From Endobacterium cereale (GTDB lineage: Bacteria > Pseudomonadota > Alphaproteobacteria > Rhizobiales > Rhizobiaceae), in the NCBI RefSeq assembly GCF_009617585.1, contig NZ_WIXI01000046.1:62001-126000 (forward strand): DNA of 64,000 bases. Direction: 5' to 3'. Below, piece by piece: positions 55,765 to 63,291 of the stretch. The notes beneath the pieces were generated by a model, which was given only the letters and a program-made list of their open reading frames with translations, was not told the origin of the DNA and ran no database searches. Position 1 is the stretch's first letter, and the number at the start of each line of letters is the position of its first letter. A program made the position numbers and the translations under genes.

Positions 55765-56055
55765 TTATGCGGTGTCCCCCGGGGCCGGGAATTGAGCTTG
55801 CACCTTTTCGTCGCACCCTGTGCGGCGGATCAGCGCAGACGCGTCCTTGACGATTGCCATTAAACCGTCGCCGCCATTATCGATATGGGCAAAAAGCTGC
55901 TGACGCATCCGAGGCTCCCAAAACTTGTTGATATGTGTCGCCACCCCCTCAATTTGGGTATTTTTGGGCTGGGATAAAAAGAAAGTACCTATCTGATTTG
56001 CCATGCGAATCAGTTTTTCAGGTTTTTGGTCGCTCAAATCTGTTTCATGAGACAT
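55765..56055 (-). CDS. fdsD: Formate dehydrogenase subunit delta
   Basis: A 96-residue small subunit of the soluble NAD-dependent molybdenum formate dehydrogenase. The family block KLIRMANQIGTFF and the C-terminal half HINKFWEPRMRQQL are clear. FdsD is needed for a stable, active complex in Cupriavidus and Rhodobacter, possibly as a binding or maturation factor. Its start overlaps the fdhD end by 11 bases. The longer frame upstream lies inside fdhD and was rejected. Confidence 0.9.
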   Translation of the reverse strand: MSHETDLSDQKPEKLIRMANQIGTFFLSQPKNTQIEGVATHINKFWEPRMRQQLFAHIDNGGDGLMAIVKDASALIRRTGCDEKVQAQFPAPGDTA

Positions 56056-56896
56056 CGGTTTCAGCCTCGAATCGAATACGGTTGGGGTGAGTAAAGACTT
56101 CGAAATCCTCGCCACGAGACAGGGCCACCAGCGTCATGCCGGCAGCATTTGCTGTGCGGATGGCAAGCGCCGTCGGCGCCGAAATGGCAATCAGGACGGG
56201 CGAACCGAGAATGGCCGCCTTCTGCACCATTTCGACCGAGATGCGACTGGTAACGACAACCACGCCATCACGTCCTTGACGTCCCGAGCGCAAAACGGCG
56301 CCAGAGAGCTTGTCGAGTGCGTTGTGCCGGCCGACATCCTCACGAACGGCGATCAAGCCCTCGCCGGGAATGAAAAAACCTGCCCCGTGAACGGCTCGCG
56401 TTTCCGCATGCAGCGGCTGTGCCTCATTCAGTGCGGAACTGGCGGTCGCGATGTCCGCTGGAGACAGAAGCATCTCCACGGCGGAAACATCCGGCACCGG
56501 CCGAATGGCCTGCTCGATCGACTCGATTCCGCAGAGACCGCAGCCGACCGGGCCCGCCATATGCCGGCGACGGGCGCGAAGCGCGTCCTCCTTGTCTTCC
56601 GCCAATGTCACCTGAACATCGATGCCGTCGCCTTCCTGCAGAAGCTCGATCGCCTCGATCTCTGCCGGCGACGCGATAATACCCTCGGTCAAACTGAAGC
56701 CCGTGGCAAAATCCTCCAGATCCGCCGGCGTACCCATCATCACCGCATGACTGGAACCGCCATAGGAAAAGGCGATCGGCACTTCCTCGGGAACAGACCG
56801 AACAGCCTCGCGCACCAAGCCATCGCGAAAAATCGTCTGCGGTGCGGCAGCGGTCGGCGCAATGCGGATATTCGAGTTCTGTTCGGCGGTCGACAT
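56045..56896 (-). CDS. fdhD: Formate dehydrogenase accessory sulfurtransferase FdhD
   Basis: A 283-residue protein that delivers sulfur from a cysteine desulfurase to the molybdenum cofactor of formate dehydrogenase, without which the enzyme is inactive. The conserved cysteine loop GCGLCGIES is near residues 118-126, and GEGLIAVREDVGRHNALDK and VVVTSRISVEMVQKAA are the diagnostic blocks. The start at 56896 (MSTAEQN) has an AGGA site; in-frame Met codons at 56974 and 57001 have no good site. It lies 145 bases after fdsA and overlaps fdsD. Confidence 0.92.
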   Translation of the reverse strand: MSTAEQNSNIRIAPTAAAPQTIFRDGLVREAVRSVPEEVPIAFSYGGSSHAVMMGTPADLEDFATGFSLTEGIIASPAEIEAIELLQEGDGIDVQVTLAEDKEDALRARRRHMAGPVGCGLCGIESIEQAIRPVPDVSAVEMLLSPADIATASSALNEAQPLHAETRAVHGAGFFIPGEGLIAVREDVGRHNALDKLSGAVLRSGRQGRDGVVVVTSRISVEMVQKAAILGSPVLIAISAPTALAIRTANAAGMTLVALSRGEDFEVFTHPNRIRFEAETDVS

Positions 56897-57041
56897 GAGA
56901 GGCATCCTGTGCGCGGAAAGGTGTAGTCTCTCGACTGCCACTTCCTGTTTCTTGATGCCGGTCAAAATAGTCATCGGTGCCGCCCACGCAACGGGCGGCA
57001 CGTCATTCCTGCAGAATGACAGGAAGCCGGAAGAAATCTCC

Positions 57042-59921
57042 TCATTCAGCCGCTTCCAGCTTGCCGGCGATACGCCGTGAACGCCGGGACAGCTCCTCGT
57101 AATCCTCCTGCCATCCGGTCGGGCCGTTGGATGGCGACACCTGCACCGCCGTCACCTTGTATTCCGGGCAATTGGTCGCCCAGTCGGAAAAATCCGTGGT
57201 GATGACATTGGCCTGCGTGTCCGGGTGGTGGAAGGTCGTATAAACGACGCCCGGCGCCACGCGATCGGTGATCAGTGCCCGAAGAGACGTATCACCGGAA
57301 CGGCTGGCAAGCTTGATCCAGTCGCCATCCTTGATACCGCGCTGCTCGGCATCATGCGGATGGATTTCCAGACGGTCTTCGGCATGCCAGGCGACGTTTT
57401 CCGTGCGCCGCGTCTGCGCCCCGACATTATATTGCGACAGAATGCGGCCGGTGGTCAGCAGAAGCGGAAAACGCGGCCCGGTCCGCTCGTCGGTCGCGAC
57501 ATATTCGGTGCGGATAAACTTGCCCTTGCCACGGACAAAGCCATCGACATGCATGATTGGCGAGCCAGTGGGGAATTTCTCGTTGCACGGCCACTGAACC
57601 GAACCCATCTTTTCGAGATAGTCGTAGGAGACCAGCGCAAAACTCGGCGTTGTCGCGGCAATCTCGTCCATGATCTGCGACGGGTGGCTGTAATTCCAGC
57701 TCAGCCCCATAGCCTGCGCCAGTTTCTGGGTCACTTCCCAGTCGGCATAACCATTCTTCGGGGTCATGACCTTTCGCACGCGGTTGATGCGGCGCTCGGC
57801 ATTGGTGAAGGTGCCGTCCTTTTCCAGAAAGGTCGAACCGGGCAGGAAAACATGCGCGTAATTGGCCGTTTCGTTGAGGAAGAGGTCATGCACCACCACG
57901 CATTCCATCGCGGCAAGACCGGCTGACACGTGCTTGGTGTCCGGGTCGGACTGCAAAATGTCCTCACCCTGGATATAGATGCCTTTGAACGAGCCTTCTA
58001 CCGCGGCATCCAGCATGTTTGGAATGCGCAGGCCCGGTTCATTGTTGAGCGTCACGCCCCACAGTTTTTCGAAAATGTCACGCGTGGCATCATCGGAGAT
58101 ATGACGATACCCCGGCAGTTCGTGCGGAAATGACCCCATGTCGCAGGATCCCTGCACATTGTTCTGGCCACGCAGCGGGTTCACGCCGACACCTGGACGG
58201 CCGATATTACCGGTGACCATGGCAAGGTTGGCGATCGCCATGACCGTCGTTGAACCCTGGCTGTGTTCGGTGACGCCGAGACCATAATAGATCGCGCCAT
58301 TGCCGCCGGTGGCAAACAGGCGGGCAGCGCCACGCACCAGACCGGCGGGAACACCTGTATATTTTTCCGTCGCTTCCGGGCTATGCGCCTCTTCCGAAAC
58401 GAAGGCCGCCCAATCCTCGAATTCCGACCAGTCGCAGCGTTCGCGAATGAATGCTTCGGCAAACAGACCTTCGGTAACGATGACATGCGCCAGCGCCGTC
58501 ATCATCGCAACATTGGTGCCGGGCAATAGCGGCAGATGGTAGGCCGCTTCCACATGCGGCGTCTTGACGAGATCGATACGGCGCGGATCGATAACGATCA
58601 GCTTTGCGCCCTGCCGCAAGCGCTTCTTCAGGCGAGACCCAAAGACTGGATGACCATCGGTGGGATTGGCACCGATGACGATCACAACATCGGAATGCTC
58701 GACGCTATCGAAATTCTGCGTGCCCGCAGAGGTGCCAAACGCTTGGCCGAGCCCATAACCAGTCGGCGAATGGCAGACACGGGCACAGGTATCGACATTG
58801 TTGTTGCCAAAGCCGGCGCGGATCAGTTTCTGGACGAGAAAGGTTTCCTCATTGGTGCAGCGCGACGAGGTGATGCCGCCGATGGATTCCCGACCATACT
58901 GATACTGGATTCGCCGGAATTCCGAGGCGATATGCGAATAGGCTTCTTCCCAGCTGACTTCACGCCAGGGATCGGAAATGTTTTCGCGGATCATCGGGTT
59001 GAAGATGCGGTCCTTGTGGCTGGCGTAACCATAAGCAAAGCGGCCCTTCACGCAGGAATGACCACGGTTGGCCTGCCCATCCTTCCACGGCACCATGCGC
59101 ACCAGTTCTTCACCGCGCATCTCTGCCTTGAACGAACAGCCGACGCCACAATAGGCGCAGGTCGTCACGGCTGAATGTTCCGGCTGGCCGATCGCGATCA
59201 CTGACTTTTCCGTCAGTGTCGCGGTGGGACAGGCCTGCACGCAGGCACCGCAGGAAACGCATTCGGAATCGAGAAAATGCTCGTGCATGCCGGGTGAGAC
59301 ACGGCTTTCGAAACCGCGGCCCTCGATGGTCAGCGCGAACGTGCCCTGCACTTCCTCGCAGGCCCGCACGCAGCGCGAACAGACGATGCATTTCGAAGGA
59401 TCATAGGTGAAGTAAGGATTGGATTCGTCCTTCGGCATCCATTTGGCGTTGATGGCGCCATCGTTGCGGGTGCGCACATGATTGTCGCCCTCATAACCAT
59501 ATCGCACGTCGCGAAGACCGACTGCGCCTGCCATGTCCTGCAATTCGCAATCGCCATTGGCGGCGCAGGTCAGACAGTCGAGCGGGTGATCGGAGATATA
59601 AAGCTCCATCACACCACGCCGGATATCCTTTAACCGGCCGGTCTGGGTGTGAACGACCATGTTCGGCGCAACCGGCGTTGTGCAGGAGGACGGGGTGCCG
59701 TTGCGTCCCTCGACCTCCACCAGACAGAGCCGGCAGGAGCCGAAGGCATCCACCATATCGGTGGCGCAAAGTTTCGGGATCTGGATGCCGGCCTCCATTG
59801 AGGCGCGCATGATCGAAGTGCCCTCCGGCACGGTGATGGCACGACCGTCAATCGTCAGCGTGACCTGTTTTTCCGAGCGCGAGGCGGGCGTGCCGTAATC
59901 GATTTCCTGAATCAGGTGCAT
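57042..59921 (-). CDS. fdsA: NAD-dependent formate dehydrogenase subunit alpha
   Basis: The 959-residue catalytic subunit, oxidising formate to CO2 at a bis-MGD molybdenum site. The N-terminus is NuoG-like: [2Fe-2S] cysteines (CATDMVDAFGSCRLC), the His-Cys cluster region (CLTCAANGDCEL), then two ferredoxin-type clusters (CIVCSRCVRACEEV and CVSCGACVQACPT), then the molybdopterin domain with its own [4Fe-4S] motif CAYCGVGC. The Mo ligand is a cysteine in NVDTCARVCHSP, not selenocysteine. The C-terminal dinucleotide domain is complete. An ideal AGGAG precedes the ATG at 59921. Confidence 0.96.
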   Translation of the reverse strand: MHLIQEIDYGTPASRSEKQVTLTIDGRAITVPEGTSIMRASMEAGIQIPKLCATDMVDAFGSCRLCLVEVEGRNGTPSSCTTPVAPNMVVHTQTGRLKDIRRGVMELYISDHPLDCLTCAANGDCELQDMAGAVGLRDVRYGYEGDNHVRTRNDGAINAKWMPKDESNPYFTYDPSKCIVCSRCVRACEEVQGTFALTIEGRGFESRVSPGMHEHFLDSECVSCGACVQACPTATLTEKSVIAIGQPEHSAVTTCAYCGVGCSFKAEMRGEELVRMVPWKDGQANRGHSCVKGRFAYGYASHKDRIFNPMIRENISDPWREVSWEEAYSHIASEFRRIQYQYGRESIGGITSSRCTNEETFLVQKLIRAGFGNNNVDTCARVCHSPTGYGLGQAFGTSAGTQNFDSVEHSDVVIVIGANPTDGHPVFGSRLKKRLRQGAKLIVIDPRRIDLVKTPHVEAAYHLPLLPGTNVAMMTALAHVIVTEGLFAEAFIRERCDWSEFEDWAAFVSEEAHSPEATEKYTGVPAGLVRGAARLFATGGNGAIYYGLGVTEHSQGSTTVMAIANLAMVTGNIGRPGVGVNPLRGQNNVQGSCDMGSFPHELPGYRHISDDATRDIFEKLWGVTLNNEPGLRIPNMLDAAVEGSFKGIYIQGEDILQSDPDTKHVSAGLAAMECVVVHDLFLNETANYAHVFLPGSTFLEKDGTFTNAERRINRVRKVMTPKNGYADWEVTQKLAQAMGLSWNYSHPSQIMDEIAATTPSFALVSYDYLEKMGSVQWPCNEKFPTGSPIMHVDGFVRGKGKFIRTEYVATDERTGPRFPLLLTTGRILSQYNVGAQTRRTENVAWHAEDRLEIHPHDAEQRGIKDGDWIKLASRSGDTSLRALITDRVAPGVVYTTFHHPDTQANVITTDFSDWATNCPEYKVTAVQVSPSNGPTGWQEDYEELSRRSRRIAGKLEAAE

Positions 59922-59931
59922 GGCGCTTCTC

Positions 59932-60147
59932 CTAGATCCCATTCTGTTCAGCCAGCGTATGCGCGACGAGCGCATTCGCATGGCCATGTCCGAGACCATG
60001 CTCAGCCTTCAGCCAAGCCACGATTTCCATATGTTTTTTGTCAGGATGTTGCCGGATCAGATCCTTCCAGTGCGCGATCGGCTTTCCGTAGGTCTTCTCG
60101 ATCGACGGAAAATAGCTCGCCGGCCCTTTGACTTTTGCGTCCGTCAT
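59932..60147 (-). CDS. DUF4287 small protein within the fds operon
   Basis: A 71-residue protein of the DUF4287 type, with a SYFPSIEKTYGKPIAHW start, an HMEIVAWLKAEHGLGHGHAN block and no membrane segment. Its start overlaps the fdsB stop by 4 bases and its end is 10 bases before fdsA, so it is translated within the operon. The classic fdsGBACD operon has no such gene at this place. A role in formate dehydrogenase assembly or stability is a guess; the family also occurs far from fds genes. Confidence 0.8.
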   Translation of the reverse strand: MTDAKVKGPASYFPSIEKTYGKPIAHWKDLIRQHPDKKHMEIVAWLKAEHGLGHGHANALVAHTLAEQNGI

Positions 60148-61700
60148 TCCGCAGCCTCCACCATCGGTGTCGGCGAAAAATCCTCTGGAAAATGCGTCAT
60201 CGCGCTCATCACCGGGTAGGGTGTGAAACCGCCTAGCGCACAGAGCGAGCCGAATTTCATCGTATTGCAAAGGTCGGCCAGCAGCGCCTTGTTCTTTTCC
60301 GGTTCGATGCCTTTGGCGATCCTGTCGACCGTTTCGACACCACGCGTGGAGCCGATCCGGCACGGCGTACACTTGCCGCAGCTTTCGATGGCGCAGAATT
60401 CCATGGCAAATCGCGCCTGCTTCAGAAGGTCTGCGGTGTCATCGAAAACGGTGATGCCGGCATGGCCGATCAGGCCGTCCTTGGCCGCAAAGGCCTCGTA
60501 ATCGAACGGCGTGTCGAACAGTGCGCGCGGAAAATATGCTCCGAGCGGTCCCCCTACCTGCACCGCCTTCACCGGTCGTCCGCTCGCCGTACCCCCACCG
60601 ATATGATCGACGATCTCGCCGAGCGACAGGCCGAAGGCAGTTTCAAACAGGCCGCCATATCTGACATTGCCGGCAATCTGAATGGGGATCGTGCCGCGCG
60701 AGCGGCCCATGCCAAAATCCTTGTAGAAGGCGGCACCCCTATCCATGATGACCGGAATGGAGGCGAGCGAGATGACGTTATTGACGACAGTCGGCCGCCC
60801 CAGAAAACCCTGCAGAGCAGGCAGTGGTGGCTTTGCGCGCACCACGCCGCGTTTGCCTTCCAGCGAATTCAGCAGCGAGGTTTCCTCGCCGCAAACATAG
60901 GCCCCTGCACCTGAACGAATTTCCAGATCGAAGGCATGCGCGGAACCCAGAACCGATGGCCCGAGAATGCCGGCCTTGCGGGCAATCTCGATCGCTTCTC
61001 TCATCGTGCCGATCGCATGCGGATATTCGGAGCGGGTATAGACATAACCCTTGGTGGCGCCGGTCGCGATGCCGGCGATGACCATGCCTTCGATCAGAAC
61101 GAAGGGATCGCCTTCCATGATCATGCGGTCAGCGAATGTAGCGCTGTCGCCCTCGTCGGCATTGCAGACGATATATTTTTGAGGCCCGGCGGCCTCCATC
61201 ACCGTCTTCCATTTGATGCCGGTCGGGAAACCGGCACCACCACGACCACGCAAGCCGCTGTCCGTCACCTGGGCAACGATTTCGGCAGGCGTCATCGCAA
61301 TGGCTTTTTCGAGGCCCTTCAGTCCCTGGTAATGCCGATAATCATCGAGCGAGAGTGGATCGGTCACGCCGCAGCGGGAGAAGGTCAGGCGGGTCTGCTG
61401 ACGAAGGAAGGGAATTTCCTTCGTCGGCCCAAGACAGAGGGGATGGTCATTGCCGGATAAAAATTCGGCATCGAAGAGTGATTTCACGTCCGAGGCTTTA
61501 GCCGGCCCGTAGGCCACGCGACCGTGTTGGGTGCGCACTTCCACCAGCGGCTCGAGCCAGAACATGCCACGAGATCCGTTGCGCACCACCCGAGCATCCA
61601 GGCCCCGGGCGGCGATCTCGTCGAGAATTGCTCTCGCCACCTTCTCAGAACCGAGCGCTAGAGATGCCGCATCCCGCGGAACGAAAATTGTTACCGTCAT
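60144..61700 (-). CDS. fdsB: NAD-dependent formate dehydrogenase subunit beta
   Basis: A 518-residue NuoF-like subunit carrying FMN, a [4Fe-4S] cluster and the NAD site. An N-terminal thioredoxin-like region (residues 1-110) precedes the NuoF core with GLRGRGGAGFPTGIKW (NAD/FMN binding), CNADEGDSATFADR and the cluster motif ESCGKCTPCRIG plus a distant Cys in GSLCALGG. It passes electrons from FdsA to NAD. It overlaps fdsG and the DUF4287 gene by 4 bases each. Confidence 0.96.
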   Translation of the reverse strand: MTVTIFVPRDAASLALGSEKVARAILDEIAARGLDARVVRNGSRGMFWLEPLVEVRTQHGRVAYGPAKASDVKSLFDAEFLSGNDHPLCLGPTKEIPFLRQQTRLTFSRCGVTDPLSLDDYRHYQGLKGLEKAIAMTPAEIVAQVTDSGLRGRGGAGFPTGIKWKTVMEAAGPQKYIVCNADEGDSATFADRMIMEGDPFVLIEGMVIAGIATGATKGYVYTRSEYPHAIGTMREAIEIARKAGILGPSVLGSAHAFDLEIRSGAGAYVCGEETSLLNSLEGKRGVVRAKPPLPALQGFLGRPTVVNNVISLASIPVIMDRGAAFYKDFGMGRSRGTIPIQIAGNVRYGGLFETAFGLSLGEIVDHIGGGTASGRPVKAVQVGGPLGAYFPRALFDTPFDYEAFAAKDGLIGHAGITVFDDTADLLKQARFAMEFCAIESCGKCTPCRIGSTRGVETVDRIAKGIEPEKNKALLADLCNTMKFGSLCALGGFTPYPVMSAMTHFPEDFSPTPMVEAAE

Positions 61701-62176
61701 CGGCCAATCTCCCCAACGATTTCGGAAAGACAGTGGTCGTCCACCCGGCCGTAAACCTCACCATCCAGCATGGCGGCTGGCGCGCAGGCGCAAAGGCCCA
61801 GACAGTAGACCGGCTCAAGCGTGACGGCGCCATCCAGTGTCGTCTGGTGAAAATCGATACCGAGCAACTGCCGCACCCGATCGGCGACACGATCACTGCC
61901 CATAGACTGACAGGCTTCGGCCCGACAAAGTTTCAGCACATGCCGGCCTGCCGGGTGGTCGCGAAACTCGTGATAGAAGGTGACGACGCCGTGCACTTCG
62001 GCACGTGAAAGGTTGAGTTCACCGGCGATCACCGGCTTCACGTCCTCCGGCACATAACCAAACTCCGCCTGGATCGCATGCAGGATCGGCAGCAAAGGGC
62101 CTTCGAGATGTTTGTGTTCGCGTACGATATCGCGCGAACGCTCGGCCATATCGGCCGCAGCGAGATGCATGTTCAT
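61697..62176 (-). CDS. fdsG: NAD-dependent formate dehydrogenase subunit gamma
   Basis: A 159-residue NuoE-like [2Fe-2S] subunit. Four cluster cysteines are in LCRAEACQSMG and YCLGLCACAPA, and an N-terminal helical domain with GPLLPILHAIQAEFGYVP and VTFYHEF precedes them. It is the first gene of the fds operon; 152 bases separate it from the regulator gene. It overlaps fdsB by 4 bases. Confidence 0.95.
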   Translation of the reverse strand: MNMHLAAADMAERSRDIVREHKHLEGPLLPILHAIQAEFGYVPEDVKPVIAGELNLSRAEVHGVVTFYHEFRDHPAGRHVLKLCRAEACQSMGSDRVADRVRQLLGIDFHQTTLDGAVTLEPVYCLGLCACAPAAMLDGEVYGRVDDHCLSEIVGEIGR

Positions 62177-62313: not shown

Positions 62314-62330
62314 GATAGAACATTTCTATC
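62314..62330. promoter_or_regulatory. LysR-type palindrome upstream of fdsG
   Basis: A perfect 7-bp inverted repeat with three central bases, GATAGAA-CAT-TTCTATC. It contains the LysR consensus T-N11-A (T at 62316, A at 62328). It lies about 138-154 bases before the fdsG start and touches the stop codon of the LysR gene. It is a likely binding site for that regulator; experimental support is lacking. Confidence 0.55.
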
Positions 62331-63222
62331 AATCCGGATCGATAACGCCGAGATTGCGCGCCTCGTGCAACAGCGCCGAAACCAGCGGCGTGAACGGCTC
62401 ACGATGCGTGGCGACGAGGCCGACAACGTGGCTGGCCTTCGGCTCGACGATGGGAATAGTGCGGATCTGCGCCGAAAAACCGAATGATCGCGCGACGTTA
62501 CGTGGCATGATGCTTGCCCAGCGACCGGTGCCGACATGCGCCAGCAGTACGACCATGGAATTGGATTCCAGCATGGTACGCACATCCACACCGGCGCTGG
62601 CGAGATGCTGGTTGATGATACGGCGGTTCTGGTTGTCCGGTGTGAGCAGGCATAGGCGCAGCCCGGCCATATCCTTCCAGGTCACTTCTTTGCGATCGGA
62701 CAGCGGTGTGCCCTCTGACGTGACCAGCGTATAGTGTTCGGCATAAAGCGGCACACTGGTGACGCGACCGAGCGGTTCGTTATCGAGATAGGTCAGGCCA
62801 GCATCGATTTCGAAGTTTTCCAGCTGGCTCAGCACCTGCAGCGACGTGCGGGAGACGACAGAAAATGTCACTTCGGGATGTTTGGCCTGAAACGGTTCGG
62901 TCAGTTTCGGGATCATGGCCAGCGCCGTCGGGATCGCGGCCAGCCTTATATGCCCGGCCAACCCTTTACGGGCGGCCCGCATTTCCTCGCGCATCGTGCG
63001 GGTATCGCCGACGATACGGCGCGCCCATTCCAGCACACGCTGGCCTTCAGGAGTAAGGCCCTGGAAACGCGATCCGCGCACCACCAGACCGACACCAAGA
63101 TTTTCTTCGAGTTGCCGGATCGCCGCCGACAGCGTTGGCTGGGAAATACCGCATTCTTCCGCCGCACGTCCAAAATGCTGCTCTCGCGCCAGCGCAATGA
63201 AAAATTCCAGCTTGTCGATCAT
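62329..63222 (-). CDS. LysR family transcriptional regulator (FdsR-like)
   Basis: A 297-residue LTTR. The N-terminal winged helix (residues 1-60) has the family block FGRAAEECGISQPTLSAAIRQLEENLG, and the rest is a periplasmic-binding-like effector domain (residues about 90-295) with FSVVSRTSLQVLSQLENFEIDAGLTYL. In Cupriavidus the fds operon is controlled by an FdsR of this family; location directly upstream and on the same strand suggests the same here. The ATG at 63222 has GGAGGGAG upstream; a TTG five codons earlier overlaps that site. The effector is unknown. Confidence 0.88.
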   Translation of the reverse strand: MIDKLEFFIALAREQHFGRAAEECGISQPTLSAAIRQLEENLGVGLVVRGSRFQGLTPEGQRVLEWARRIVGDTRTMREEMRAARKGLAGHIRLAAIPTALAMIPKLTEPFQAKHPEVTFSVVSRTSLQVLSQLENFEIDAGLTYLDNEPLGRVTSVPLYAEHYTLVTSEGTPLSDRKEVTWKDMAGLRLCLLTPDNQNRRIINQHLASAGVDVRTMLESNSMVVLLAHVGTGRWASIMPRNVARSFGFSAQIRTIPIVEPKASHVVGLVATHREPFTPLVSALLHEARNLGVIDPD

Positions 63223-63291
63223 GGCCACTCCCTCCAAACAAGGGCTAGCCGGTTCTGCTTCTCAATTCAACAGCTTGCAATTGCCATAGGA

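Follow-up and report, generated by a model that had tools for sequence, protein, structure and literature searches.

Introduction

In the available excerpts of PMC10385643, PMC12571268 and PMC7171172, the operon of the NAD-dependent formate dehydrogenase (FDH) is given as fdsGBACD, with five genes only. Its FdsD product is a 71-residue four-helix subunit placed on FdsA in the excerpt of PMC7171172. The characterised formate dehydrogenases described in the excerpts of PMC12571268 and PMC7171172 are active without a DUF4287 protein. In the literature searched, DUF4287 is hardly mentioned; it appears in one paper, in a table of secretion-system effectors. Searches for PF14117 and DUF5655 both returned no mention, and a DUF4287 gene within an fds operon was found described nowhere in that literature.

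We analyzed a 64,000-nucleotide stretch of Endobacterium cereale DNA (hereafter the window; positions 62,001 to 126,000 of contig NZ_WIXI01000046.1), in which a sequence-only reading had placed such a gene between fdsB and fdsA.

The Window Carries a Variant fds Operon

The minus strand of the window carries, in order, a LysR-type gene, fdsG, fdsB, the DUF4287 gene, fdsA, fdsC and fdsD. The open reading frame (ORF) upstream of fdsG (62329..63237) is what we take to be a LysR-type regulator gene, and homologues stand there in most DUF4287-bearing loci. The fdsG product (159 aa; 61697..62176) scored 257.7 bits with NF004638 (cut-off 198), the diaphorase subunit FdsB (518 aa; 60144..61700) matched Pfam Complex1_51K, and the molybdopterin catalytic subunit FdsA (959 aa; 57042..59921) scored 967.5 bits with TIGR01591. 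The fdsC gene (56045..57001), an ORF with a match to the FdhD family, has a start codon that is not settled; for fdsD (55765..56055; PF11390, 94.4 bits) an ATG start was taken, the mechanical ORF having a more upstream GTG as its first codon. The five fds genes lie on one strand in the order of fdsGBACD, and the locus resembles the operons of Rhodobacter capsulatus and Cupriavidus necator in the order and families of fdsG, fdsB, fdsA, fdsC and fdsD, but it has one extra gene at the fdsB-fdsA junction, where fdsGBACD has nothing. Because DUF4287 intervenes there, the operon of the window is a variant of fdsGBACD. The statement of the sequence-only reading that the well-studied operon lacks this gene is borne out by the operon descriptions in the excerpts of PMC7171172 and PMC12571268.

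The additional gene (59932..60147, minus strand) runs from an ATG at 60147 to a TAG at 59932 and has 71 codons. Its product matched PF14117 (DUF4287) over profile positions 1–58 of 60 with 96.6 bits (8.5e-28), far above the curated cut-off of 27 bits, and contains the full DUF4287 domain; the Pfam scan of the 71-aa product returned nothing else above cut-off. An AlphaFold2 model predicts four helices (mean pLDDT 89.8, pTM 0.77). Conservation is strong across phyla, with 22 invariant columns among 37 DUF4287 sequences, and the window's match is the sole one in the 6.1-Mb genome assembly. Four bases, ATGA (60144..60147), are common to the fdsB stop and the DUF4287 start, and 10 bases separate the end of the gene (59932) from the fdsA start (59921). 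A Shine-Dalgarno-like stretch, TAGGAG (59929..59934), lies 7 bases 5′ of the fdsA ATG, and the TAG of DUF4287 looks to merge with the apparent ribosome-binding site of fdsA.

A homologue sits in this slot in another 23 genomes from the window's family, and the window's copy is 64–87% identical to these homologues in tblastn stretches. The median dN/dS among the slot copies was 0.20, a rough figure at a median dS of 1.05 (238 usable of 253 pairs, 23 sequences; the L140 copy contains N and was left out). The slot copies look to be under purifying selection, which shows that the product matters for something. Since homologues are held in the same slot by 23 further family genomes and appear to be under purifying selection, the gene is more than chance; it is real and conserved, and it looks translated. 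The earlier claims of a 71-residue protein-coding gene inside the FDH operon, overlapping fdsB by 4 bases and ending 10 bases before fdsA, were thereby confirmed; the minus strand is an addition to that reading, which named no strand.

Distribution of the Gene

The window's family and a class-level set were surveyed for FdsG and DUF4287. FdsG scored above its curated cut-off in 162 of 247 family genomes and in 30 of 289 class-level genomes, and DUF4287 was present in 61 and 7 of them, respectively. With the slot position assigned from coordinates and tblastn of the neighbourhood, DUF4287 lay exactly between fdsB and fdsA in 24 of the 61 DUF4287-bearing family genomes, window included, and these belong to 14 genera (60 of 62 DUF4287 places were examined, the window being the 61st; G513, with a best FdsG score far below cut-off, was left out). 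The gene is not confined at this position to a few unrelated strains, because slot copies occur in 24 of 247 family genomes from 14 genera; in this respect the sequence-only reading withstood the survey.

A subunit or assembly factor of FDH is expected wherever the enzyme is made. Slot copies were found in only 24 of the 162 FdsG-positive family genomes, and DUF4287 would therefore be at most a non-essential accessory. The closest named FdsB, from Neorhizobium (88.1%), belongs to an operon without DUF4287 and with a fdsB-fdsA gap of 4 bases. FdsD is present in addition to DUF4287, both in the window and in the remaining slot loci.

Among the 80 best named DUF4287 matches, 78 lay outside fds, mostly in Streptomyces and its kin, and 2 lay in fds. 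One of these, L269, was not counted again because it is on the same contig as G418. The other, L272 from Aquibium carbonis (placed in Phyllobacteriaceae by NCBI taxonomy), adds a slot copy that the counts given above do not include. In L272, about 740 bases separate the slot copy from fdsA, and on visual comparison the start of this stretch is similar to the reversed HicB-like stretch at L166 described below. At 35 further loci (6 class-level and 29 order-level, the latter including a few of the window's family, G335 among them), DUF4287 was found without FdsB or FdsA inside about 1.5 kb; 7 weak matches without a locus were left out of this set. In two more family genomes, from two species of one genus, a divergent DUF4287 gene stands immediately 5′ of the fds LysR gene (genomes G440 and G356; loci L146 and L153, with 43 and 39% identity, respectively, in the matched stretch).

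History of the Slot Copies

An FdsB+FdsA tree was built from 105 loci: 24 with DUF4287, 64 family loci without it and 17 class-level loci without it. The 64 loci come from FdsG-bearing family genomes without a slot copy; they were hand-picked with same-genus comparisons in mind and are not a random sample, and L227 is not among them, as its region gave no FdsB/FdsA pair. Presence of DUF4287 costs 12 changes on this tree (shuffled mean, 21.9), and starred branches force 10 of the 12. The nearest sister operons, L156 and L157, which are of the window's own genus and form a starred grouping with it, are without DUF4287 and have fdsB-fdsA gaps of 4 bases. The gene is patchy, coming and going among close relatives.

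The DUF4287 tree comprised 59 proteins; ten divergent, fused or partial copies were left out, and five loci had no tblastn match. Slot copies were separated from the others by 2 label changes on the protein tree, or by 3 when the tree was built from DNA (shuffled mean, about 19), so that switching between the slot and other loci is almost absent. Constraining the 24 slot copies to one clade cost 10.4 log units and was not rejected (p-AU 0.22). A single clade of slot copies appeared in neither the free tree nor the bootstraps, and a one-branch separation was seen in 0% of 200 bootstrap trees (2–3 changes); a single origin is therefore compatible with the data but not shown by them.

The DUF4287 and operon distances were correlated (mirror-tree r 0.61, 0 of 2000 permutations, n = 23), and imposing the operon topology on the DUF4287 tree lost 51 lnL units, as against 375–567 for 20 shuffled trees. 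Full agreement of the two topologies was rejected by the AU and KH tests (p-AU 7.6e-5 for codons and 1.4e-4 for proteins), but not by the SH test (0.26 and 0.28). We read these trees as the outcome of a small number of captures, perhaps a single one, with later exchange between fds operons and numerous losses.

A block identity scan around the window's copy revealed no clear recombination tract. Only in the last 100 alignment columns of fdsB were other operons, the best at 0.91 (DUF4287-less) and 0.88 (DUF4287-bearing), nearer than the sister operons (0.75). Since operons of both kinds are alike in being near, the type of donor cannot be told from this region.

The fdsB-fdsA Junction

Within the family, the fdsG-fdsB gap measured at most 30 bases in 86 of 88 loci and the fdsC-fdsD gap in 80 of 81; the fdsA-fdsC gap is more variable, staying within this limit in 58 of 81. 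In the 64 DUF4287-less family loci the fdsB-fdsA gap was ≤20 bases in 37, 21–100 bases in 13 and >100 bases in 14, and in the 17 class-level operons it was 26 bases at most. Inverted repeats with arms of 14–40 bases were present in all 11 DUF4287-less gaps of 100–400 bp.

The larger gaps contain other genes, each in a single genome. A pair of BrnT toxin and CopG antitoxin genes lies inside the fds operon at L235, and a DUF4258 gene with a 70-aa partner at L203. At L166 there is a HicB-like gene in reverse orientation, accompanied by a weak HicA match and with repeats on its flanks. At L096 and L106 an orphan ORF of 139–145 aa stands between fdsB and DUF4287; the two copies, from two genera, are 40% identical and have in common a C-x3-C pair. 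The orphan ORF and DUF4287 form an overlapping two-gene unit in both loci. Of the 247 family genomes, only these 2 have the orphan ORF, in each case between fdsB and DUF4287; it occurs in none of the 289 class-level genomes and in no matching plasmid record, and it had no Pfam, PADLOC or PHROGs match where these were applied. The repeats, the BrnT/CopG pair, the DUF4258 and HicB-like genes and the orphan ORF indicate that the slot accepts cargo, some of which may be specific to fds.

The last four bases of fdsB are ATGA or GTGA in all 24 DUF4287-bearing operons and in 37 of 81 DUF4287-less operons, a motif produced by a closing Glu codon and the TGA after it. The fdsB stop is TGA in all 24 DUF4287-bearing operons and in 32 of the 64 DUF4287-less family operons, and the DUF4287 gene is able to start at the fdsB overlap in 22 of the 24 slot loci. 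At the other end, TAGGA serves as the DUF4287 stop in 8 of 24 operons and as the fdsB stop in 19 of 64 DUF4287-less family operons.

DUF4287 Outside fds and Candidate Identities

In two genomes of the window's own genus (G335 and G428; loci L145 and L124), DUF4287 and a VOC-type (PF06983) gene share 4 bases in the same way as at fdsB, and the fds operons there are without DUF4287. The Sinorhizobium meliloti pSymB copy also overlaps a VOC gene. As the same −4 overlap occurs behind VOC-type genes, coupling is a habit of the DUF4287 gene and not a sign of FDH. The sequence-only reading had taken the tight coupling at this place to mean a subunit, an assembly helper or an activity modulator. This argument is not supported: the ATGA comes free with the fdsB end, 37 of 81 DUF4287-less operons likewise closing fdsB with ATGA or GTGA, the overlap recurs elsewhere with VOC-type genes, and the gene comes and goes.

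The stand-alone PF14117 proteins of Streptomyces, Roseibium and Sinorhizobium pSymB share the same small domain, and the best Streptomyces plasmid copies are 80–86% identical over the matched stretch. In the examined Streptomyces, Roseibium and other loci, the gene stands beside unrelated small enzymes or regulators; a constant partner did not emerge among 80 named and 27 family loci. The proteins from outside fds differ from the slot copies at position 42, which is Leu or Met in 34 of 35 and, in the slot copies, Ile in 22 and Val in 2 of 24.

Structure searches gave no function. A Foldseek search of the DUF4287 model against the PDB returned no match with E ≤ 0.001 (52 with E ≤ 10), a BFVD search likewise had none with E ≤ 0.001, and the best of 80 chains compared by VIA-align reached a Z of 5.0, a value that common helical arrangements also give. 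From the weak fold matches, homeodomains and IHF among them, no function was taken. The sequence search of PDB chains produced 3 weak matches, and the search with a profile 4, none of them credible. Fusions of FdsB to DUF4287 were considered for long frames of 629, 603 and 605 aa; in the plus-strand cases read, DUF4287 has its own start and the remainder is an overlapping frame.

Discussion

The explanation we prefer, to which we give about as much credence as to all others together, is that DUF4287 is an accessory cassette captured in a permissive slot, exchanged among and lost from fds operons, with a product that FDH can do without and that acts outside it. The gene would have entered the fdsB-fdsA junction within the window's family, probably once, and would use as its start the ATGA offered by the 3′ end of fdsB. 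It would move between fds operons, and be lost from them, with recombination across the conserved fdsB and fdsA sequences as the most likely route. The product would be a small, soluble protein of four helices, made from the fds mRNA by coupled translation, and would most likely act as free-standing DUF4287 proteins do, in a general role outside FDH. Its frequent absence from the slot in related bacteria makes DUF4287 probably a dispensable add-on and not a missing part of the enzyme. A second DUF4287 was found in 0 of 24 slot-copy genomes and in 37 of 223 others (one-sided p 0.016 with kinship ignored; p 0.054 without the ten divergent copies), which fits weakly with a shared general function.

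Several observations speak against such a cassette. The slot copies stay in fds, as a partner-bound gene would, and both the invariable TGA of fdsB in DUF4287-bearing operons and the 22 overlap starts are further points against it. The apparent purifying selection, a sign that the product matters for something, is another, as is the orphan ORF, which both times lies next to slot DUF4287.

The main rival, less probable in our judgement yet a serious one, is a clade-specific and non-essential FDH accessory, that is, a modulator or assembly helper that would bind FdsB, FdsA or FdsC and tune cofactor insertion, stability or inhibition. Being useful but not essential, such a protein would often be lost. 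It would account for kin copies held in one slot across 14 genera, for the low dN/dS and the mirror-tree correlation, for coupling on both sides of the gene, for the near-fixed Ile at position 42 and for an orphan ORF seen only beside slot DUF4287. FdsD, as described in the excerpt of PMC7171172, shows that subunits of such small size exist, and it is like the DUF4287 protein in size, operon and helical make-up, the helices of the latter being taken from the model. However, the two are without sequence or profile similarity (hhalign probability 0.1%, no PF11390 match), and DUF4287 as a second FdsD was rejected. The closest sister operons are without the gene, as are the characterised enzymes that are active in the excerpts of PMC12571268 and PMC7171172. 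No FdsA or FdsB residue tracked DUF4287 beyond a tree-based null of 300 simulated labellings, a comparison of modest power (best phi 0.54 at FdsA 458, p 0.16), and none of the 24 slot copies proved to be fused in frame, either as FdsB-DUF4287 or as DUF4287-FdsA.

A more specific and more tentative proposal is an optional control module inside the fds operon, made of DUF4287 and, in some species, the orphan C-x3-C protein. It would bind the diaphorase/catalytic interface or a maturation step and adjust FDH to the niche, e.g., to the oxygen or formate level, so that gain and loss by recombination at one slot would follow. The orphan ORF, seen solely beside slot DUF4287, hints at an fds-linked module of this kind.

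We consider it improbable that DUF4287 is part of a small selfish or addiction-type cargo, like the BrnT/CopG pair in the slot of another genome. The slot does hold that pair and a HicB-like gene elsewhere, and the orphan ORF with DUF4287 makes an overlapping two-gene unit in L096 and L106; but DUF4287 is alone in most slot loci, the window has no toxin-like partner and no recognisable type II toxin-antitoxin pair, and the DUF4287 protein gave neither a PADLOC nor a PHROGs match, DUF4287 being its only Pfam match above cut-off. A chance frame or decaying remnant, conceivable for a short ORF at an overlap-prone junction where an open frame from the ATGA also exists in many DUF4287-less gaps, is already refuted by the Pfam score, the identity to 23 slot copies and the dN/dS.

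These data bear on how small genes in operons are interpreted, as a 4-base overlap says little in favour of a subunit where the upstream gene offers ATGA anyway. Soluble NAD-dependent formate dehydrogenases are used in CO2 and formate biotechnology, and their gene set is taken as fdsGBACD. A recurrent sixth fds gene in one bacterial family would be an optional accessory that has been overlooked or else would clearly exemplify cargo within an operon.
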